A stretch of DNA of 64,000 nucleotides. It comes from Gemmatimonadota bacterium (GTDB lineage: Bacteria > JAAXHH01). Positions 28,517-44,376 of this stretch are shown here, piece by piece; position 1 is the first letter of the stretch; each line of letters begins with the position of its first letter. The stretch is from contig JAPPBT010000058.1 in NCBI GenBank assembly GCA_026702745.1, forward strand, positions 1-64,000, in the 5' to 3' direction. Position numbers and translations under genes: made by a program. The notes beneath the pieces were generated by a model, which worked only from the letters and a program-made list of their open reading frames with translations, ran no database searches and was not told the DNA's origin.

Positions 28517-28589
28517 GGGCGCGTAGCTCAGTTGGCAGAGCAACAGACTTTTAATCTGTGGGTCGAAGGTTCGATTCCTTCCGCGCTCA
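28517..28589 (+). tRNA. tRNA-Lys (TTT)
   Basis: 73 nt. Acceptor GGGCGCG with CGCGCTC (one G-U), D-arm GCTC...GAGC, anticodon stem ACAGA/TCTGT around CTTTTAA (anticodon TTT), T-arm GAAGG TTCGATT CCTTC. CCA is not encoded. Confidence 0.95.
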
Positions 28590-28594
28590 TGGAT

Positions 28595-28667
<73 letters not shown>

Positions 28668-28711
28668 CTGCCCTCTCCCGGTCGCACCTGCGTCTTCAAA
28701 CACGGGTGGAT

Positions 28712-28749: not shown

Positions 28750-29111
28750 GGGGGTGAAAGGATTCGACGGGAGTGGATGCGGTGGGAATCGCGTGCCGAG
28801 GTCCCCGATAACCTCGTTAAACCATTGGGAACAAAATTAACTGCAGACGAACCTTCGTATGCAATGGCTGCCTAACATCTGTTAGCGCAACCCGTTTTTG
28901 ATCAGCCCCGCCTGCGGGATGGTCAAAAGCGACGATAAAGCAGGCTGGCCGGGCGTCGCGCCTCAGGGCGCCAGGCGAGACTCAACTGAGGCTGGTTCCG
29001 GTTAAATCCTGCCTGCTGGAGTTCTCCGGAACGAGACCAAAAAACAGGCTATGCATGTAGACGTTCCCGCTTAGGCACTTCCGGACGGGGGTTCGATTCC
29101 CCCCACCTCCA
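28750..29111 (+). ncRNA. ssrA: tmRNA (transfer-messenger RNA)
   Basis: The 5' end GGGGGTGAAAGGATTCGACG and the 3' end (T-arm GGGGG TTCGATT CCCCC, then CACCTCC and discriminator A) pair as a 7-bp acceptor with one G-U. The resume codon GCA at 28843 opens the tag ADEPSYAMAA, ending at TAA 28873-28875 (the charged Ala adds one more residue in front). It rescues stalled ribosomes and tags the product for proteolysis. CCA is not encoded. The lower-GC accessory block begins right after its 3' end, a common integration site. Confidence 0.93.
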
Positions 29112-29183
29112 TCATCATTTATAACCACCTTAAAAAGTAATATACTTGCCGGTCTCCGGTTCCAGACGAAAGAAGAGTCCGAG

Positions 29184-29492
29184 ATGATTCCAGCCATACG
29201 AAATCAGGCTGACTCGCTAAGAAGCCTGTGCCTGGACTACGACGTACAGCGTCTTGAACTATTCGGATCAGCCACCACTTCATCCAAACTACATGATATC
29301 GGTGATCTGGATTTCCTGGTAGAGTTTCAGCCGAAAGCACTAGAGACATATGCTGACAACTACTTCGGACTGTTGGAAGATTTGCAGCGACTATTTGGGA
29401 AGCCCGTGGATCTGGTAGTCGGTTCAGCAGTTAAGAATCCTTATCTCTTGCAATCGATAGACCGGACGAAAACACTTGTCTATGAAGCTTGA
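29184..29492 (+). CDS. mntA: MntA-type nucleotidyltransferase antitoxin
   Basis: The 102-residue product is a minimal nucleotidyltransferase: LELFGSATTSSKLHDIGDLDFLVEF holds the Gly-Ser and Asp-x-Asp catalytic motifs, here with 11 residues between GS and DxD (10 is usual). MntA antitoxins neutralise HepT by adenylylating it. The gene overlaps the HEPN gene by 11 nt, the standard two-gene arrangement. First gene after tmRNA. Confidence 0.85.
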   Translation: MIPAIRNQADSLRSLCLDYDVQRLELFGSATTSSKLHDIGDLDFLVEFQPKALETYADNYFGLLEDLQRLFGKPVDLVVGSAVKNPYLLQSIDRTKTLVYEA

Positions 29493-29829
29493 GACCAAGA
29501 AGTTATTGTTCGACATTCATCGAGCCGCCTTGCTGGTTCGAGAGTTTACGCTGGACAAGAGGTATGAGGATTATACACGAGATTCCATGGTGCGTGCCGC
29601 TGTAGAGCGGCAATTCGAGATCATCGGCGAGGCAGTTAAGCAACTCGCCCAAATCGATAGCCACGTTACCTCTAAAATCAGCGACTTCCAACGCATTATC
29701 TCCTTCCGCAATGTCCTGATCCATAACTATGCCGACGTAGACAGTCGGCTGGTGTGGGACGTCGTTGAGACTAAACTTCCTACCCTGATCCATGAAGTGG
29801 AAACTCTAATATCAGAGCCTTCCGAATGA
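29482..29829 (+). CDS. hepT: HepT-type HEPN toxin (DUF86)
   Basis: The 115-residue product is all-helical and carries RNVLIHNY, the RX4HXY catalytic motif of HEPN ribonucleases; the Tyr is the residue AMPylated by MntA in studied pairs. Upstream, VERQFEIIGEAVKQL is the DUF86 signature helix. ATG 29482 is preferred over an in-frame TTG at 29476. It cleaves RNA or tRNA when unmodified. Base composition is AT-richer than the chromosome around it. Confidence 0.87.
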   Translation: MKLETKKLLFDIHRAALLVREFTLDKRYEDYTRDSMVRAAVERQFEIIGEAVKQLAQIDSHVTSKISDFQRIISFRNVLIHNYADVDSRLVWDVVETKLPTLIHEVETLISEPSE

Positions 29830-29928
29830 ACTGTCCTGGTGTTTTAAAGCAGAACGCTAGTATAGATCGACCTGCTATGTAGAAATACTGAGTCGTTGAT
29901 ATACCAATACGAAATGGAGATGACGATA

Positions 29929-30855
29929 GTGACGCAAGACTGGGAACGGATTTTCGACACATGGGCGCAACCACCTTCAAAAACGGAAGTACAGCGCTCT
30001 GAGAACGCAGTTAGGAGCATCCATAATGCGATCGGTCACAGTTCAAAGCTGAATCAACAGAGATTGAAGGTCTTTACCCAAGGATCCTATCGCAATCGAG
30101 TCAACGTTCGTCACGACAGCGACGTTGACATTGGCGTTATGCTCTACCAGTACTTCCTATGGCAGATCCCAGAAGGTAAAACACCGGCCGATTATGGCAT
30201 CAGAATTGCAGATTATACTTTTGCACAGTTCAAGGATGATCTCGAAGACGCCCTGGTCGCCCACTTCGGTAGAGCAGCCGTTACGCGTGGGAACAAGGCA
30301 TTCAATATCAGGGAAAACTCTTATCATGTAGAGGCTGACGTTGTACCGCTCTTCGAGTTCAGAAGGTATTGGGAAGACGGGCATTACCGGGCCGGTGTTG
30401 CCTTACTGACAGACAAAGATAGCCGAAGAATTGAGAACTTCCCTGAGCGCTTGGTAGAATACTGGCCGTCAACGCCTTTGCACTACGAGAATGGCGTAAC
30501 TAAGAACGATGAAACCGTCCGGCGCTTCAAAGGGATCGTACGCATACTTAAGAGTTTACGGAACACGATGGATGACGCTGGTTCCCAATCGGCGAAGGCT
30601 ATACCTGGTTACCTGTTGGAGTGTATGACTTGGAATGTGCCGAATACTTGTTTTTCTGGTTCCACATGGGATACACGCGTTCAAGCTGTGTTGAGGCACC
30701 TCTGGATCAGTACTAACGACGCTACGAAGTGTGAGTCATGGTGTGAAGTGGATGCGATTAAGTACCTCTTTCGTTCTTCACAGCCATGGACACGTGAGGC
30801 CGCGCATACCTTCATCAATGAAGCATGGACCTTTGTCGGGGTTCGGTCATCGTGA
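29929..30855 (+). CDS. CBASS CD-NTase (cGAS/DncV-like nucleotidyltransferase)
   Basis: The 308-residue product has the SMODS-type nucleotidyltransferase core: FTQGSYRNRVNVRHDSDVDIGVML with GS at 52-53 and Asp 65 and 67, and the third catalytic Asp at 137 (VEADVVPLFEF). It should make a cyclic oligonucleotide when triggered by phage infection. The GTG at 29929 is preferred because GGAG lies 8 bp upstream; in-frame ATGs at 29914 and 29920 are alternatives. It overlaps the Cap15-like effector by 4 nt (GTGA). No Cap2/Cap3 ancillary genes are present, so this is a minimal (type I) system. The clade and nucleotide product cannot be read from sequence alone. Confidence 0.88.
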   Translation: MTQDWERIFDTWAQPPSKTEVQRSENAVRSIHNAIGHSSKLNQQRLKVFTQGSYRNRVNVRHDSDVDIGVMLYQYFLWQIPEGKTPADYGIRIADYTFAQFKDDLEDALVAHFGRAAVTRGNKAFNIRENSYHVEADVVPLFEFRRYWEDGHYRAGVALLTDKDSRRIENFPERLVEYWPSTPLHYENGVTKNDETVRRFKGIVRILKSLRNTMDDAGSQSAKAIPGYLLECMTWNVPNTCFSGSTWDTRVQAVLRHLWISTNDATKCESWCEVDAIKYLFRSSQPWTREAAHTFINEAWTFVGVRSS

Positions 30856-31487
30856 AGCTTGAGCGACGCCACATAACTGCATTTTTGGGTCTGGCAGCCT
30901 TAGTCTGGTGGCTTGTACTAGGGGCTCCAAGGGTGAAGTGGGAATATGTGCAACCGTTCGGTACCGTCGTCATAGTTCTTGCCGCCTTTGGAACAGCTTT
31001 TGAGTTGGTGCTGTGGCGTTGGTCACTGATCCACGGTTGGTTTGTGAAACGACCAGATCTGCGTGGCACTTGGCGTGTTGAACTGCAATCGAATTGGATC
31101 GATCCAGACACGAATCTCGGTGTACAACCCATCGTTTGCTACATGGGCGTTACACAAACCCTTTCAACTCTACAGATGCATCTGATGACGCCTGAATCTG
31201 AGTCCTGGTTCATTGCGGAACGTATCAGCCCATCGCCAAGTGGTGTCGGGTATCGAGTAGCCGGCGTGTACACGAACAAACCGCAAACTCATTTACGTGG
31301 AACGCTTAGTGAAATGCATTTGGGAGGAGTGCTACTCGACACGCATGGACCGGCTAATCGACCGGACACGCTTACAGGTGAGTACTGGACTGACAGAAAG
31401 ACAAAAGGACGTATGACATTCACCGCAAGACTACCCGCCGTATTCACACACTACGATGACGCTAATAGGGCTTTCGATGAAGCGTGA
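30852..31487 (+). CDS. cap15: Cap15-like CBASS effector (2TM plus beta-strand-rich domain)
   Basis: The 211-residue product has two hydrophobic segments (about residues 8-24 and 36-56) and then a beta-rich soluble domain beginning near PDLRGTWRVELQSNW and containing YMGVTQTLSTLQMHL and LRGTLSEMHLGGVLLDTHG. This is the layout of the SMODS-associated 2TM/beta effector (Cap15), in which a membrane-anchored barrel binds the cyclic nucleotide and disrupts the inner membrane. The GTG start overlaps the CD-NTase stop; an in-frame ATG at 30825 is possible. The assignment rests on architecture plus the adjacent CD-NTase. Confidence 0.82.
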   Translation: MKLERRHITAFLGLAALVWWLVLGAPRVKWEYVQPFGTVVIVLAAFGTAFELVLWRWSLIHGWFVKRPDLRGTWRVELQSNWIDPDTNLGVQPIVCYMGVTQTLSTLQMHLMTPESESWFIAERISPSPSGVGYRVAGVYTNKPQTHLRGTLSEMHLGGVLLDTHGPANRPDTLTGEYWTDRKTKGRMTFTARLPAVFTHYDDANRAFDEA

Positions 31488-32369: not shown

Positions 32370-35300
32370 ATGAACACACCCGAAAGCGAGATTGAAGAGT
32401 TCCTTGTCGAGAAGCTACAGGACCTCAAATACGTATATCGCCCCGACATCCGTAAACGAGCAAAGCTTGAAGCAAACTTCAGGGAGAAGTTCGAAGCACT
32501 GAATAGAGTCAAACTCACGGATGGCGAGTTCGAACGGCTTCTCGACGAGATCGTCGCACCGGACGTATACAAGGCCGCCCAGATCCTCCGTAACCGGCAA
32601 GCATTCACACGAGACGACGGCACGCCACTCAACTACACCCTCGTTGATATTGAAGACTGGTGCAAAAACACCTTCGAGGTTGTTAATCAGCTTCGCATCA
32701 ATACGGACTACAGCCATCACCGCTATGACGTCATACTCCTGATCAACGGCGTTCCCGTCGTTCAGATCGAGTTGAAGACGCTTGCGATCAGCCCGCGAAA
32801 GGCGATGGAGCAGATCGTCGAGTACAAGAACGACCCTGGTAACGGATACACCAAGACGCTGCTCTGCTTCGTCCAGCTCTTCATCGTCAGCAACCGCGTG
32901 GACACGTTGTATTTCGCCAACAACAACGCGCGGCATTTCTCTTTCAACGCCGACGAGCGGTTCCTTCCGGTCTATCGATTTGCGGCCGAGGACAACACCA
33001 GGATCACCCACCTCGACGACTTTGCCGATCGGTTCCTCGCCAAGTGTACGCTCAGTGAGATGATCAGCAAGTACATGGTCCTTATCGCAAGCGAGCAGAA
33101 GCTCTTGATGATGCGCGCGTATCAGATCTACGCCGTCCAGGCGATCGTCGATTGCATCGACCAGAACGGCGGTAACGGCTATATCTGGCACACGACCGGC
33201 TCGGGCAAGACGCTTACTTCCTTCAAGGCCTCGACACTCCTTAAGAGCAACCACGACATCCACAAGTGCCTGTTCGTCGTCGATCGCAAGGATCTCGACC
33301 GCCAGACGCGCGATGAGTTCAATAAGTTCCAGGAGAACTGCGTCGAGGAAAACACCAATACCGCAGCGCTCGTCAACCGTCTCGAATCCGACGACTACGC
33401 GGACAAGGTCATCGTCACGACCATTCAGAAGCTCGGGCTCGCACTCACCGAGAACGGTGACAACAACCAGCAGAAAACAACTCAAGGACAGCCGTCGTAC
33501 AAGCAGCGGCTGGAGCACCTCAAAGACAAGCGGATGGTCTTTATCTTCGACGAGTGTCACCGCTCCCAGTTCGGCGAGAACCACAGGGCCATCAAGGAGT
33601 TTTTTCCGAACTCCCAGCTCTTCGGCTTCACCGGCACCCCGATCTTCGAGGACAATGCGACCGTCACGCAGATCAAGGGAGATGTCGCCACTCTTCGAAC
33701 TACCCGGGATCTCTTCCAGAAAGAGCTTCATGCCTACACCATCACCCACGCGATCGAGGATCAGTACGTCCTTCGTTTCCACGTGGATTACTACATGCCC
33801 GAGGACACCCCGACCCTCACGCCCGGCCAGAATTTCGCCAAACAGGCGGTCGCTCGAGCCATTCTCAACAAGCACAATGCCGCAACCGGTGAACGACGCT
33901 TCAACGCACTGCTGGCCACCGCCTCGATCAACGATGCGATCGAGTACTACGAAGTCTTCAAGCAGCTTCAGCCTCATTTCCAGGCCAACAATCCCGAGTT
34001 CGTCCCTCTCAAGATCGCCGCTGTTTTCTCACCGCCGGCGGAGGGCAACAAGGACGTCCAGCAGATCCAGGAAGACCTTCCCCAGGAGAAGGAGGACAAC
34101 CGGCACGACCCCGAAGGCAAGAAGACCGCGCTCTCAGCCATCATCGACGACTACAACGAGCGGTATGGCACGAACTACGACATCAACAGCTTCGACCTCT
34201 ACTACCAGGATGTCCAGCAGCGCATCAAGGACCAGCAGTTCCCCAACCACGACCTTGATAAGAAAGGCGCTGAGAAAATCGACGTCACCATCGTCGTCGA
34301 CATGCTCCTCACTGGCTTTGACGCCGTGTACCTCAACACGCTCTACGTCGACAAAAATCTCAAACATCATGGTCTGATCCAGGCCTTCTCCCGCACCAAC
34401 CGCATACTCAACGCAACAAAGCCCTACGGCCACATACTCGATTTCCGGCAGCAGCAAGAAAGCGTCGACACCGCCATCGCGCTTTTCTCCGGCGCGCAGC
34501 CTGACAGGGCCCGCGAGATCTGGCTGGTCGACAAGGCACCAGTCGTCATCGAAAACTTCGAGAAGGCTGTCGCCGACCTCGGCGAGTTCATGCAGTCTCA
34601 GGACCTCGAGGTCAGGCCCGACCAGGTTAGCAACCTGAAGGGCGACGACGCCCGCATCCAGTTCATTAAGCGATTCAAAGATGTCCAGAGACTCAAGACC
34701 CAGCTTGACCAGTACACCGATCTAACCAAAGAGCAGAACGAGCAGATCGAAGACGCCCTCCCCACAGAGGACCTTCAAGCCTTCCGAGGCGCTTACCTCG
34801 AAACCGCACAACGTCTGAAAGACCAACAGGGCACACCCGGTGGGGACGACAAGCCGGTCACAACTGAGACCGACCAACTCGATTTCGAGTTCGTCCTCTT
34901 CGCCTCCGCTCTCATCGACTACGACTACATCATGCAACTGATCGCCAAGTACTCGAATCAGGATCCCAAGAAGGTCGAGATCAGCCGCGAGCAGCTCATC
35001 GGCCTGATTCAGTCCGAAGCCAAGTTCCTTGACGAACGGGAAGAGATCATCGAGTACGTAGCCTCTCTCAAGGAAGGCGAAGGCCTTGACGAGGACGCGA
35101 TCCGCGCCGGTTACGAGCAGTTCAAGACCGCGAAGCAGGCCGAGGAAATCGAGCACCTTGCTCAGGTGCACCAACTGACCCCTGAGTCTCTCGCGGCTTT
35201 CGTCAACACCATCCTCCAACGCATGATCTTTGACGGTGAGCAACTCACCGACCTGATGAAACCGCTTGACCTGGGCTGGCGTGAACGCCGTAAGCGCGAA

Positions 35301-35396
35301 CTGGCACTTATGGACAATCTAATACCGGTTCTAAAAAAGCGGGCAGAGGGCCGGGGTATCTCAGGCCTGAACGCCTACGAACAGGGGGGCGCATGA
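32370..35396 (+). CDS. hsdR: Type I restriction endonuclease subunit R
   Basis: The 1008-residue product has an N-terminal PD-(D/E)xK nuclease domain (HRYDVILLINGVPVVQIELKT, about residues 117-137), a superfamily 2 translocase with Walker A in HTTGSGKT (about residue 273-280), DECH box (FIFDECHRS, about 393), FGFTGTP, and the later TIVVDMLLTGFDAVYLNTLY and QAFSRTNRI motifs. It translocates and cuts unmodified DNA as part of the HsdR2M2S complex. It overlaps hsdS by 4 nt. A weak ribosome-binding site precedes ATG 32370. Confidence 0.95.
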   Translation: MNTPESEIEEFLVEKLQDLKYVYRPDIRKRAKLEANFREKFEALNRVKLTDGEFERLLDEIVAPDVYKAAQILRNRQAFTRDDGTPLNYTLVDIEDWCKNTFEVVNQLRINTDYSHHRYDVILLINGVPVVQIELKTLAISPRKAMEQIVEYKNDPGNGYTKTLLCFVQLFIVSNRVDTLYFANNNARHFSFNADERFLPVYRFAAEDNTRITHLDDFADRFLAKCTLSEMISKYMVLIASEQKLLMMRAYQIYAVQAIVDCIDQNGGNGYIWHTTGSGKTLTSFKASTLLKSNHDIHKCLFVVDRKDLDRQTRDEFNKFQENCVEENTNTAALVNRLESDDYADKVIVTTIQKLGLALTENGDNNQQKTTQGQPSYKQRLEHLKDKRMVFIFDECHRSQFGENHRAIKEFFPNSQLFGFTGTPIFEDNATVTQIKGDVATLRTTRDLFQKELHAYTITHAIEDQYVLRFHVDYYMPEDTPTLTPGQNFAKQAVARAILNKHNAATGERRFNALLATASINDAIEYYEVFKQLQPHFQANNPEFVPLKIAAVFSPPAEGNKDVQQIQEDLPQEKEDNRHDPEGKKTALSAIIDDYNERYGTNYDINSFDLYYQDVQQRIKDQQFPNHDLDKKGAEKIDVTIVVDMLLTGFDAVYLNTLYVDKNLKHHGLIQAFSRTNRILNATKPYGHILDFRQQQESVDTAIALFSGAQPDRAREIWLVDKAPVVIENFEKAVADLGEFMQSQDLEVRPDQVSNLKGDDARIQFIKRFKDVQRLKTQLDQYTDLTKEQNEQIEDALPTEDLQAFRGAYLETAQRLKDQQGTPGGDDKPVTTETDQLDFEFVLFASALIDYDYIMQLIAKYSNQDPKKVEISREQLIGLIQSEAKFLDEREEIIEYVASLKEGEGLDEDAIRAGYEQFKTAKQAEEIEHLAQVHQLTPESLAAFVNTILQRMIFDGEQLTDLMKPLDLGWRERRKRELALMDNLIPVLKKRAEGRGISGLNAYEQGGA

Positions 35397-36640
35397 TGGC
35401 ATACGACATGCCATCGAACCTTGTGCCGAAACTGAGGTTTCCGGAGTTTCAAAGTGCAGGGGAATGGGAACCAAAAATAATGGGCGATATTGCAAGCTTC
35501 TTTAAGGGAAAAGGACTGCCCAAGAGTATGCTCTCGACCGATGGAACTAGGCAGTGTATACACTATGGAGAACTGTTTACGGTCTACCCAGAAGTAATTG
35601 AAACGGTTTATAGTAGAACAGACTTAGATTTAGATGAAAATCTGTTCTTATCGGCCGTTGACGATGTGCTAATGCCAACTTCAGACGTAACACCAAATGG
35701 ACTGGCGAAGGCATGTTGCGTGAAGTTGCGCGATGTAATTATCGGTGGCGATATACTGGTAATAAGAACCGACCAACGCAAAGTTGGTGGAGAATTCCTA
35801 GCTCGGTATATTCGTCACCTTGAACCAAGAGTTCTTCAACTGGTTACTGGTTCGACTGTCTATCATCTTTATGCGACTTCTTTAAAAAAACTGGATCTGA
35901 AAGTTCCAAGTCAGTCCGAACAGCAGAAGATCGCCGACTGTCTAGGCTCGCTGGACGCCCTGATTGCGGCTGAGGGTCGGAAGCTCGAATCGCTGCGGCA
36001 GCACAAGCAAGGGCTAATGCAACAGCTCTTTCCCCAGCCCGGTGAAACCGTGCCGCGTATACGGTTTCCGGAGTTCCAGGATAGACCTGAGTGGAATTGT
36101 CTGCAGTTGGAAGAGCTAGAAACAGAAGGCAGGATCGAACTCGGTAGAGGCAAGGTTATCTCCCATGCCGACATGCGCGCTAACCCCGGGCCGCATCCCG
36201 TGTATTCATCTTCGGTTATAGATGAAGGTCTTATGGGTACATACGGTGACTACCTGTTTGATGAGGAATTGATTTCGTGGTCAGTCGATGGCGGCGGACA
36301 TTACTTTTATAGGCCCAAGCACAAGTTCTCGGTAACAAATGTTTCTGGTTATATGCGAGTGCTTTGTGGTGACATTGTCTGCCGTTTTCTCGCCTATCAA
36401 CTACAGCGACTTCACCGGTCGCAGACCTTCGACTACCAGCAGAAGGCTCATCCGAGTGTAATCCGTGCGTTGTATACGGTTGGCCTTCCCGAGCCGAACG
36501 AGCAGCGAATGATTTCCGACTGTCTAACTTCACTTGATGCACGGTTAATCGGACAAACTCGAAGGCTTGGTGCACTCAAGCAACACAAACAGGGACTGAC
36601 GCAACAGCTCTTCCCCAGTTTGGAGGAAGAATCGCGATGA
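35393..36640 (+). CDS. hsdS: Type I restriction specificity subunit S
   Basis: The 415-residue product has two target-recognition domains separated and ended by near-identical conserved helices: IADCLGSLDALIAAE and ISDCLTSLDARLIGQ, each followed by a KQGLxQQLFP stretch. Each recognition domain reads one half of a bipartite target. The target itself cannot be predicted. The region coding the variable domains is distinctly AT-richer than the rest of the operon, as expected for exchanged recognition domains. Coupled by overlap to hsdR and to the following anticodon-nuclease gene. Confidence 0.93.
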   Translation: MMAYDMPSNLVPKLRFPEFQSAGEWEPKIMGDIASFFKGKGLPKSMLSTDGTRQCIHYGELFTVYPEVIETVYSRTDLDLDENLFLSAVDDVLMPTSDVTPNGLAKACCVKLRDVIIGGDILVIRTDQRKVGGEFLARYIRHLEPRVLQLVTGSTVYHLYATSLKKLDLKVPSQSEQQKIADCLGSLDALIAAEGRKLESLRQHKQGLMQQLFPQPGETVPRIRFPEFQDRPEWNCLQLEELETEGRIELGRGKVISHADMRANPGPHPVYSSSVIDEGLMGTYGDYLFDEELISWSVDGGGHYFYRPKHKFSVTNVSGYMRVLCGDIVCRFLAYQLQRLHRSQTFDYQQKAHPSVIRALYTVGLPEPNEQRMISDCLTSLDARLIGQTRRLGALKQHKQGLTQQLFPSLEEESR

Positions 36641-37836
36641 CTGAGACTCACTATGCCGATTTGTGTAAAGTCGCTCGACACCTCCGTTCGGTACTGGCTG
36701 ATAGAGCCCAAAGGCGGCCCGACAAGAGCCCGTACGTCCTGATATACGCATACAACAGGACCGGCAAGACACGGCTGTCCGCAGCATTCAAAAACCTCGG
36801 AAAGGCAGTGGACGAGAACAACGAGGTTCAGAGCCAGGATACCCTGTACTTCAACGCCTTCACCGAGGACCTGTTCTCGTGGGACAACGACTTGGAGAAC
36901 GACGAGCATCGTACGCTAAAGCTCAACGCAGCGTCCAGATTCTTTATTGGGCTCAACGAACTGGAGATCGAGAATCGGATCCGCCCGCTGCTGGACCGCT
37001 ACGCGGACTTCGACTTCCGGATCAACTTCGAGTTCAACGAACTGACTGGCAACATCACCAGCGCCGAGGTGACCTTCTCCCGGACGGTACGGGGCGTAAT
37101 GGGGAACGACGCGCGGACTGTTGAGGTGGACGGCATCAAGATTTCGCGCGGCGAGGAGAACATCTTCATCTGGTGCTTCTTCCTTGCGATCCTCCAACTC
37201 GCGCTTGACGGGGCCGATGCGTACGAGTGGGTCGAGCATGTCTACATCGACGATCCAATCTCGTCTCTCGATGAACACAACGCCATCGTCGTGGGCAATC
37301 ATCTCGTCCAGTTGTACCGAGAGGCGCAACGCCCGATCAAGACAGTATTGTCAACGCATCACACCCTGTTCTTCAACGTGCTGCACTACGAGCTGCGGAA
37401 TCATTTGGGACGGCCATTGCAGTACATCCTCAAGCGAGACCGCCTGTCAGACGGCTACCTGCTGGTGGAACAAACCGGCGATACGCCGCAGTTCTACCAT
37501 GTCGCCGCATTGAAAGATCTCTGGCTAGTGGCGCAAAGCGGCCGGGCCAACACGTTCCACTTCAATATCTTACGTACGATTCTGGAGAAAACCGCTTTGT
37601 TCCACGGCCACAGCCATTTCTCGAAGTGCATCGAGACCAATGATGATGCGGACGGACTCCTTCACCAGCGGTTCGTCGATCTATTGAGCCACGGCAAGTA
37701 CTCAATGTACGAGCCTACCGAAATGGGTGACGAAACGAAGGAGTACTTTTTCACCATTCTTAAAGGATTCGTGGATCAACACCCGTTCAACCGTGAACTT
37801 CTACCAGAACCCCCCGCAGATACGGAAGCATCATGA
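36637..37836 (+). CDS. prrC: PrrC-like anticodon nuclease (ABC ATPase plus HEPN-type RNase)
   Basis: The 399-residue product is almost the length of E. coli PrrC (396). Residues 38-45 are a Walker A variant (AYNRTGKT); ISRGEEN near 169 is the ABC signature; VYIDDPISSLD (202-212) is Walker B plus D-loop; STHH (239-242) is the H-loop. In the C-terminal part, Arg 313 and Glu 317 (LRTILE) and His 352 (LLSHGKYS) fall in the order and near the spacing of the PrrC catalytic triad Arg320-Glu324-His356. PrrC is held inactive by the type I RM complex and cleaves the tRNA-Lys anticodon loop when phage inhibit restriction. Both neighbours overlap it by 4 nt. RloC is less likely because the long coiled coil is missing. 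Confidence 0.78.
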   Translation: MTETHYADLCKVARHLRSVLADRAQRRPDKSPYVLIYAYNRTGKTRLSAAFKNLGKAVDENNEVQSQDTLYFNAFTEDLFSWDNDLENDEHRTLKLNAASRFFIGLNELEIENRIRPLLDRYADFDFRINFEFNELTGNITSAEVTFSRTVRGVMGNDARTVEVDGIKISRGEENIFIWCFFLAILQLALDGADAYEWVEHVYIDDPISSLDEHNAIVVGNHLVQLYREAQRPIKTVLSTHHTLFFNVLHYELRNHLGRPLQYILKRDRLSDGYLLVEQTGDTPQFYHVAALKDLWLVAQSGRANTFHFNILRTILEKTALFHGHSHFSKCIETNDDADGLLHQRFVDLLSHGKYSMYEPTEMGDETKEYFFTILKGFVDQHPFNRELLPEPPADTEAS

Positions 37837-39452
37837 CCGAAAACAACCAAATTCAGTTAGGTAGGACACTCTGGACCATCGCTGATCAGCTAAGGGGGGC
37901 GATGAACGCGGATGACTTCCGCGACTACATGCTGGCTTTCCTGTTCCTCCGCTACCTCTCAGACAATTACGAGCAGGCAGCTGAGAAGGAACTAGGCCGC
38001 GACTACCCAGATCTCGACACAATCGAAAACGACGGGCGGTCTCCACTGTCTGTCTGGTACGAGCAGAACCCCGATGATGAGTCGGCGTTCGAGAAGCAGA
38101 TGCGACTCAAAGCGCATTACATCATCCGCCCCGAACACCTCTGGACCAGCATTGCGTACATGGCACGCACCCAGGACGACGGGCTACTAAACACGCTACA
38201 GGCCGGCTTCAATTACATCGAGACCGAATCGTTTCAGAGCACGTTCTCTGGGCTTTTCTCGGAAATCAATCTCGCCTCCGAAAAGCTTGGGAAGACTTAC
38301 GTAGACCGGAACGCGAAGCTCTGCACGATCATCACCAGAATTGCCGAGGGCCTCGCGGAGTTCTCGACCGACAGTGACACATTAGGCGACGCCTACGAGT
38401 ACCTGATCGGCCAGTTCGCCGCTGGCTCGGGCAAAAAAGCAGGAGAATTCTACACGCCACAGCGCATTTCGGACATCCTCTCCGAGATCGTCACGCTCGA
38501 CGGTCAGGAGCCGAATACCGGCAAGCGTAAGCGCCTCGACAGCGTGATGGACTTCGCCTGCGGCTCGGGCTCACTGCTACTCAATGTGCGCAAGCGAATG
38601 GGTTCGCACGGTATCGGTAGAATCTACGGGCAGGAAAAGAACGTCACTACCTACAACCTCGCCCGTATGAACATGCTGCTCCACGGGGTGAAGGACCTGG
38701 AGTTCGAGATATTCCACGGCGACACGCTGACCAACGACTGGGACATGCTCCGCGAGACGAACCCGTCGAAGAAGCCCCGCTTCGACGCCGTGGTCGCCAA
38801 CCCACCGTTCAGCTACCGCTGGGAACCGAACGAGGCCTTAGGCGAGGACTCGCGTTTCAAGAACTATGGGCTGGCCCCGAAGTCGGCGGCGGACTTCGCG
38901 TTCCTGCTGCATGGGTTTCACTACCTCACGGACGACGGCGTGATGGCGATCATCCTGCCGCACGGCGTGCTGTTCCGTGGCGGCGCTGAGGCAAAGATCC
39001 GCCGCAAACTACTCGACGACGGGCACATCGACACCATCATTGGCCTACCTGCGAATCTGTTCTACTCGACCGGCATCCCGGTCTGCATCCTCGTCCTGAA
39101 GAAGTGCAAGAAGCCCGATGACGTCCTGTTCATCAACGCATCCGAGCATTACGAGAAGGGCAAGCGACAGAACTATCTTTCCGACGAGCATATCGGGAAG
39201 ATTATCGAAACGTACCGAGAGCGTCCCGAGCAGATGATCGAGCGGTTCGCCAGGCGCGTGGAGATGGATGAGATCAAGGCCAACGAGTACAACCTGAACA
39301 TCTCGCGCTATGTCAGTACCGCCATGCCAGAGGTCGAGATTGATTTGTCAGCCACGCATAGGGAATTGGTCGAGATCGAGAAACAAGTCGAGGAGTCAAC
39401 GGAAAAGCACAACGAGTTTCTGAAGGAACTTGGACTACCTCCTTTAGATTAG
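37833..39452 (+). CDS. hsdM: Type I restriction modification methyltransferase subunit M
   Basis: The 539-residue product has the HsdM_N helical domain (TLWTIADQLRGAMNADDFRDYMLAFLFLRYLSD-like), the SAM-binding motif DFACGSGSLLL (about residue 240) and the adenine-N6 catalytic motif NPPF (about residue 325). It methylates the site recognised by HsdS. It ends the hsdR-hsdS-prrC-hsdM operon. A transposase relic abuts its 3' end in the opposite direction. Confidence 0.96.
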   Translation: MTENNQIQLGRTLWTIADQLRGAMNADDFRDYMLAFLFLRYLSDNYEQAAEKELGRDYPDLDTIENDGRSPLSVWYEQNPDDESAFEKQMRLKAHYIIRPEHLWTSIAYMARTQDDGLLNTLQAGFNYIETESFQSTFSGLFSEINLASEKLGKTYVDRNAKLCTIITRIAEGLAEFSTDSDTLGDAYEYLIGQFAAGSGKKAGEFYTPQRISDILSEIVTLDGQEPNTGKRKRLDSVMDFACGSGSLLLNVRKRMGSHGIGRIYGQEKNVTTYNLARMNMLLHGVKDLEFEIFHGDTLTNDWDMLRETNPSKKPRFDAVVANPPFSYRWEPNEALGEDSRFKNYGLAPKSAADFAFLLHGFHYLTDDGVMAIILPHGVLFRGGAEAKIRRKLLDDGHIDTIIGLPANLFYSTGIPVCILVLKKCKKPDDVLFINASEHYEKGKRQNYLSDEHIGKIIETYRERPEQMIERFARRVEMDEIKANEYNLNISRYVSTAMPEVEIDLSATHRELVEIEKQVEESTEKHNEFLKELGLPPLD

Positions 39453-39897: not shown

Positions 39898-40926
39898 TTA
39901 TCCTGATACTGGTTTGAATGGTCCATCTCCGATTACCCTCGCAATGCGGAAAGCTAGGCTTTCTCTGAATCGTTCTAGCTTGTTCTTTTCCCACACTACA
40001 TAGGGATATTGGCGTATGTCGAAGTGTATTTTGTTGTTGTCTATTATATCTTTCCTACAGGTGAATATAACGTCCTTACCCAGCCCCTGCGCGAAACCCG
40101 CTTCGTAGTATACGCTCCCCCGAGCTCCGCCACGACCATGCGTGAAATCCGCGACGACAAATCGTGACCTCTTGATTTCAGCGATTATCTGGTCGTCAAT
40201 TTTGTCGAGGAAATGTTCTTTGTTTATTATCGAGGCGTTGTATCCTGCGTCCTTGATTGCGGGCTCAATGCCTTCTGGATAGAGGAAATCTAAGGAGTCG
40301 TCGAACCACATCGCCACGAACGCCTTAGAAGATGCTACAACGACGGTATCCAATTCGGCAAGACGAGCGTGTCCTTCGACCGTTAAACGAGTGTATTTAG
40401 AATGACTATTCGGAGGTTCGACTTCGCCGATTTCTCCCTCCTCCACCCATTCACGCTTCTCCAGATAGTCAAGTAGGTATTCCAATTCCCAATAATTGAC
40501 GCTTTCTGTATAGGCGAGCGCTTCCATTTCATCATCGTACGCACTACCAATCCAGAACTCATACTTCTGGCCAATGTCAGTGGTTTTCTGGGAAACGTAC
40601 TTCAGTAACTCATCGGCTCGAGCGTGGATGACCATACTAGGTCGTTGTGTTATCGATTCAATGTTGCTCACGAATCCGTCGCCCTTTGGTTCTAAGGAAA
40701 GATGTAGCTCCGGTCGTTCGACGCCCGACCTTCGTTGTTCGATCATCCAAGTCGTCAGGCGCGACTTTGCACTATCATCAAGTTTGCCCACTGCTTTTGA
40801 AGCTCTTCTGCTAATAAAATACCTCCCTCCAGCACGAGGAGAATCCACGTTTAAACCATCACCTCGGAAGAACACGTCGGGTTTAGTCGGCGTCCCCCAG
40901 ATCGGACAAAGACAGTTTCCACTCAT
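39898..40926 (-). CDS. Winged-helix plus nucleoside 2-deoxyribosyltransferase-like protein
   Basis: The 342-residue product appears to have three parts. A short N-terminus has Cys 5 and Cys 7. A middle segment (about 140-195) has winged-helix spacing (YWELEYLLDYLEKREWVEEG, then YTRLTVEGHARLAEL). The C-terminal domain (200-340) resembles nucleoside 2-deoxyribosyltransferases: KAFVAMWFDD, RSRFVVADFT with Asp 260, SVYYEAGFAQGLGK with Glu 275 as the likely nucleophile, and IHFDIRQYPYV. Related domains hydrolyse nucleotides and appear in defence loci. AGAGGAGAT before ATG 40926 fixes the start. Substrate and role are not known; a nucleotide-depleting or sensing effector is inference. Confidence 0.65.
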   Translation of the reverse strand: MSGNCLCPIWGTPTKPDVFFRGDGLNVDSPRAGGRYFISRRASKAVGKLDDSAKSRLTTWMIEQRRSGVERPELHLSLEPKGDGFVSNIESITQRPSMVIHARADELLKYVSQKTTDIGQKYEFWIGSAYDDEMEALAYTESVNYWELEYLLDYLEKREWVEEGEIGEVEPPNSHSKYTRLTVEGHARLAELDTVVVASSKAFVAMWFDDSLDFLYPEGIEPAIKDAGYNASIINKEHFLDKIDDQIIAEIKRSRFVVADFTHGRGGARGSVYYEAGFAQGLGKDVIFTCRKDIIDNNKIHFDIRQYPYVVWEKNKLERFRESLAFRIARVIGDGPFKPVSG

Positions 40927-44357: not shown

Positions 44358-44376
44358 ATACCTCCATCATTCCATT

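Follow-up and report, generated by a model that had tools for sequence, protein, structure and literature searches.

The linked partners of EcoPrrC and of its reported orthologues are type IC restriction-modification (R-M) enzymes (PMC3014915; PMC3874165). More recently, PrrC170 from Klebsiella quasipneumoniae was cloned as HsdR-HsdS-PrrC-HsdM from 300 nt upstream of HsdR (PMC11555353, published in 2024). It blocks the phages T1 and T7, is toxic, arrests growth and targets tRNA-Lys; its identity to EcoPrrC is 35% (PMC11555353). RloC, at about twice the length of PrrC, contains a zinc-hook coiled coil and is rarely linked to R-M systems (PMC2610378).

The locus described here lies in a stretch of 64,000 nucleotides from a Gemmatimonadota bacterium (contig JAPPBT010000058.1), referred to below as the window. 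The product of the gene at 36637..37836 is predicted from its sequence to be an anticodon nuclease of the PrrC type, a suicide enzyme that acts as a second line of defence against phages, and adds a further example to a known system. It shares with the E. coli PrrC of the EcoprrI locus the combination of ABC-ATPase and anticodon nuclease (ACNase), the R-E-H triad, a type IC partner and the position directly behind hsdS, but differs in that the EcoprrI order is M-S-PrrC-R, the distance from the catalytic E to H is 32 rather than 35 residues, a KYGDSNKSFSY peptide is present and the identity is 33%. With PrrC170 the window has the gene set in common and apparently also the order, the identities to EcoPrrC being 35% and 33%. 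PrrC170 apparently belongs to the same hsdR-hsdS-prrC-hsdM (R-S-C-M) lineage, a placement based on gene order and EcoPrrC identity rather than on its own sequence. A PrrC encoded on a K. quasipneumoniae plasmid (L188), in an R-TrlF-RBD-S-PrrC-M operon, shares 55% identity with the window protein; the two differ by 45% sequence divergence, and the host of the window protein is from a rarely sampled phylum. In such enterobacterial plasmid operons, a TrlF-family ATPase and an RNA-binding-domain protein lie between hsdR and hsdS (L002, 925-4712; L188, 949-4736). With the window locus, the range of this classic enzyme of abortive infection now takes in a phylum that has been poorly sampled.

The prrC gene and its type IC operon

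The operon is arranged in the order hsdR-hsdS-prrC-hsdM on the forward strand. The gene hsdR (32370..35396) encodes a type IC restriction subunit of 1008 aa with EcoR124_C and HSDR_N domains, hsdS (35393..36640) a specificity subunit of 415 aa with two target-recognition domains (Methylase_S in two stretches), prrC (36637..37836) the ABC-ATPase with its C-terminal anticodon-nuclease domain, and hsdM (37833..39452) an N6-adenine methyltransferase of 539 aa with HsdM_N and N6_Mtase domains. A reading of the DNA made from the sequence alone (the sequence-only reading) had described a frame of 399 residues between hsdS and hsdM that overlaps both by 4 nt; this is borne out, and the hsdR/hsdS junction overlaps as well, all three junctions sharing the 4 nt ATGA. 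The best solved match of HsdR is EcoR124 HsdR (E about 1e-119), and HsdM matches the EcoR124 M protein (E=1.4e-89) far better than EcoKI; judged by these similarities, the R-M partners of PrrC are of type IC, with EcoR124-like HsdR and HsdM. A promoter scan upstream of hsdR yielded fewer matches than shuffled sequence.

The PADLOC PrrC profile covers residues 8-387 of the protein (E=4.7e-124), and the Pfam domain AAA_13 spans residues 168-354, with all three catalytic residues inside it. In its 399 aa, the N-terminal ABC-ATPase and the C-terminal nuclease domain are joined without a coiled-coil insert, and prrC is the sole gene of its type in the genome. The 396-aa 'anticodon nuclease' of E. 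coli NIST0056 was used as the reference, as it contains R320, E324 and H356 and, at 284-294, KYGDSNKSFSY, in agreement with the positions given for the catalytic residues and the tRNA-Lys peptide of EcoPrrC (PMC3014915; PMC2610378). A 399-aa E. coli homologue, whose gene shares 99% DNA identity with the reference gene, is 33% identical to the window protein over window residues 35-385 (BLASTP E=2e-45). The identification as a PrrC-like anticodon nuclease in the sequence-only reading is thus upheld by the profile, the alignment with E. coli PrrC and the linkage to a type IC R-M operon. Phage-borne copies were not found among named phage records.

The functional residues were located by alignment with 126 relatives from many phyla, of which 125 are complete at the triad positions. 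In the ATPase part, R41 replaces the usual G of the Walker A motif AYNRTGKT (residues 38-45, 36748..36771). The strongest conserved block of the family, TLYFNAFTEDLFSWDNDL (residues 69-86, 36841..36894), is likely the 'PrrC box', a name taken from PMC3014915, the match to that 15-residue box being based on its conservation. Further along are the ABC signature region KISRGEE (residues 168-174, 37138..37158), the Walker B motif with the D-loop, VYIDDPISSLD (residues 202-212, 37240..37272), and the invariant switch or linchpin histidine H241 (37357..37359). QTGDTPQFYH (residues 279-288, 37471..37500), which ends in the invariant H288, is the equivalent of the E. coli tRNA-Lys recognition peptide KYGDSNKSFSY; in the nuclease domain, H308 (37558..37560) is likewise invariant among the aligned relatives. 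R313 (37573..37575), E317 (37585..37587) and H352 (37690..37692) are the equivalents of E. coli R320, E324 and H356.

All three triad residues are present in 125/125 complete relatives. The sequence-only reading had assigned Arg313-x3-Glu317 and His352 to the PrrC triad and had made its case depend on their conservation among homologues; the residues lie and align as it said, and their conservation is complete. It had also pointed to two departures from E. coli PrrC, which were read correctly but turn out to be ordinary: the histidine spacing of 35 as opposed to 32 is no departure because the distance spans 32-37 across the family, and the R in Walker A is found in 9 of the 97 rows that make up the window's lineage; these rows fall into two clades, the second of which (L107-L112, L114) is intact.

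An AlphaFold2 model based on an 88-sequence alignment reached a pLDDT of 89, its ATPase part being nearest to the Rad50 and SMC heads, and residues 283-399 modelled alone gave an all-helical domain with a pLDDT of 83. In the model, R313 and E317 lie on the second helix and H352 just past helix 341-351. Since a Foldseek search of the C-terminal domain against the PDB returned no significant match (none below E=2.9), the assignment of a HEPN fold to the nuclease domain is a putative one, taken from profile comparisons in the literature (PMC3710099). Sequence and fold searches retrieved no solved PrrC structure.

Gene order in the PrrC family

Gene order was read from tblastn matches around each prrC; where a contig end had removed one flank, the neighbour on the other side decided the assignment. 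In all loci that have flanks, prrC immediately follows hsdS. The 125 tree rows comprise 96 with the order R-S-C-M and 29 with M-S-C-R, whereby R-S-C-M is over-represented because the genome scan supplied the best 80 of at least 548 PrrC loci, those nearest to the window, and plasmids and viral contigs were the source of the M-S-C-R rows. A single branch of the tree, supported at 100%, separates the two orders, which corresponds to one change as opposed to a mean of 26 after shuffling, and none of the 96 rows in the window's lineage has the order M-S-C-R. What is new here is that gene order divides the family perfectly among the sampled relatives. The observation in the sequence-only reading that R-S-PrrC-M is unlike the E. 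coli order is therefore correct, although the order is not an oddity, as it marks a major PrrC lineage: most sampled relatives use it rather than the textbook order.

Among the M-S-C-R rows, those with an E-to-H distance of 32 mostly carry a GDSNKS-type peptide, and those with a distance of 36 a shorter peptide of the NDSPFSYHL type. A broad sample of 384 genomes yielded strong matches (E below 1e-100) in six, three of them in the window's genus. One very divergent PrrC (L134) forms the longest branch of the tree and has the R-S-C-M order and an intact triad; its placement is uncertain, and it may represent a third lineage.

Discordant histories of PrrC and its partners

In 51 R-S-C-M operons, the identities of HsdM and HsdR are correlated at 0.82, as opposed to 0.30 for PrrC and HsdM and 0.38 for PrrC and HsdR, and 19 M-S-C-R operons gave a similar picture (0.85, 0.36 and 0.26, respectively). 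In the same 51 operons, 14 of the 21 well-supported PrrC splits contradict well-supported HsdM splits, compared with 2/20 for HsdM against HsdR. AU tests, for which the groups were picked after the trees had been seen, rejected for PrrC the HsdM clade of the window with L023 and L111 (support 92; p=2e-4), and for HsdM the PrrC clade of the window with L023 and L026-L029 (p=1e-57). The discordance is also visible within the window's genus, where one relative (G003) has an HsdM that is 85% and a PrrC that is 50% identical, and another (G007) 94% for both. HsdM and HsdR directly flank the S-PrrC pair in most loci; four loci, as extracted, have a gap of 0.7-1.1 kb before HsdM. The distances of hsdS and prrC show no correlation (0.0), which says little, as HsdS is dominated by its recognition domains.

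Since the history of PrrC conflicts with that of HsdR and HsdM, PrrC appears to have been exchanged between operons, and the trees suggest that PrrC alleles, or the S-PrrC interior, were replaced independently of their partners in both lineages. We lean towards regarding PrrC as a swappable toxin module, whose alleles would, in both lineages, move from one type IC operon to another without parting HsdR from HsdM. In that case the contact that silences PrrC would have to be a generic one, and turnover of the toxin would be under selection much like that of the target-recognition domains of HsdS, with phage tRNA repair or decoy tRNAs as a possible driving force. The exchange result might come as a surprise to a specialist, and it leads to testable questions, namely whether any type IC enzyme silences any PrrC and whether PrrC diversity follows phage counter-measures. 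A literature search, mostly of papers accessible without subscription, found no published report of PrrC exchange.

Proposed function, tRNA target and genomic setting

The sequence analysis establishes the family membership, the conserved ATPase and nuclease residues, the type IC partner and the coupled operon, and it is highly probable that the window encodes a PrrC anticodon nuclease whose gene lies within a complete type IC R-M operon and is translationally coupled to it. Silencing, trigger, tRNA target and abortive infection are carried over from E. coli PrrC and Klebsiella PrrC170. By this analogy, PrrC would be held inactive on the HsdRMS complex until a phage protein or a change in the nucleotide pool upsets this complex on DNA. 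The ABC-ATPase half would then change state and free the C-terminal nuclease, which would cut the anticodon loop of a tRNA, most likely tRNA-Lys, via Arg313, Glu317 and His352, and translation and phage growth would stop.

Other readings of the gene were weighed against this one. An RloC-like protein, which senses DNA damage, excises the wobble nucleotide and acts independently of R-M, has in common with the window protein the AAA_13 ATPase and the R-x3-E ... H nuclease motif, and weak matches were obtained to PADLOC PDC-S06 models of 690-860 positions. These reach 1.2e-13 at best, compared with 4.7e-124 for PrrC, the gene is located in an R-M operon, and the zinc-hook coiled-coil insert in the ATPase of RloC is absent from the 399 aa, whereas the open frames of distant matches have about 740-820 aa. 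An RloC-like identity is refuted on architecture and has hardly any probability left. The unusual R41 could instead mean that this PrrC has decayed or lost its catalytic activity and persists as a passenger or because it serves the R-M enzyme as a structural partner; however, the catalytic and switch residues are all intact, dN/dS is 0.25 between the window prrC and the 94%-identical copy of a congener, and the R-type Walker A is shared with the second, intact clade, which makes decay very improbable.

That the protein is a nuclease of the PrrC type but has a different tRNA from tRNA-Lys as its target is a more serious alternative, although still an unlikely one. The KYGDSNKSFSY-like segment, which marks the EcoPrrC tRNA-Lys subgroup, is absent from the window protein, whose QTGDTPQFYH is two residues shorter and not conserved in sequence, so another tRNA target is possible. 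The segment differs throughout the R-S-C-M lineage: N289 and K290 are missing in 97/97 rows, and the D287 equivalent is D in 60/97, compared with 28/29 M-S-C-R rows. The window protein nevertheless retains D at this position (D282). The anticodon loop of the host tRNA-Lys(UUU) is CUUUUAA, the same loop as in E. coli. Substrates may vary with the sequence of the recognition peptide (PMC3014915), but PrrC170, apparently of the same lineage, targets tRNA-Lys (PMC11555353).

The R-M/PrrC operon is part of a 15.2-kb defence island integrated at the 3' end of the tmRNA gene and bounded by an 11-bp direct repeat, ACCTCCATCAT, whose left copy (29105..29115, + strand) lies at the 3' end of the tmRNA gene ssrA and whose right copy is at 44360..44370 (+ strand). 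In a congener (G002) the island is missing, and what lies to the left of 29114 continues straight into 44360, which represents the empty site. The two tRNA-Lys genes noted upstream in the sequence-only reading do exist (28517-28668), but they fall outside the island and recur with tmRNA in congeners. Their proximity was rejected as a clue to the substrate: the tRNA-Lys/tmRNA cluster is core genome, on the core side of the junction, so the proximity is a consequence of where the island was inserted.

No integrase was recognised on the island, which contains, in addition to the R-M/PrrC operon, a HepT/MNT toxin-antitoxin pair, a CBASS cyclase with a Cap15-type effector and a TIR-like gene. The MNT nucleotidyltransferase and HepT toxin-antitoxin pair (29184-29829) lies just inside the island and is followed by the CBASS pair (29896-31487), in which a CD-NTase (PADLOC cyclase, E=2.3e-114) and a Cap15/2TM effector overlap by 31 nt. 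The protein encoded at 39898-40926 on the reverse strand has a weak C-terminal match to TIR or nucleoside deoxyribosyltransferase domains and is a possible NAD-consuming effector. Elsewhere in the genome, the host encodes an RtcB RNA ligase (G000:C102:28006-29166, E=4.5e-72), by which cleaved tRNA might be repaired.
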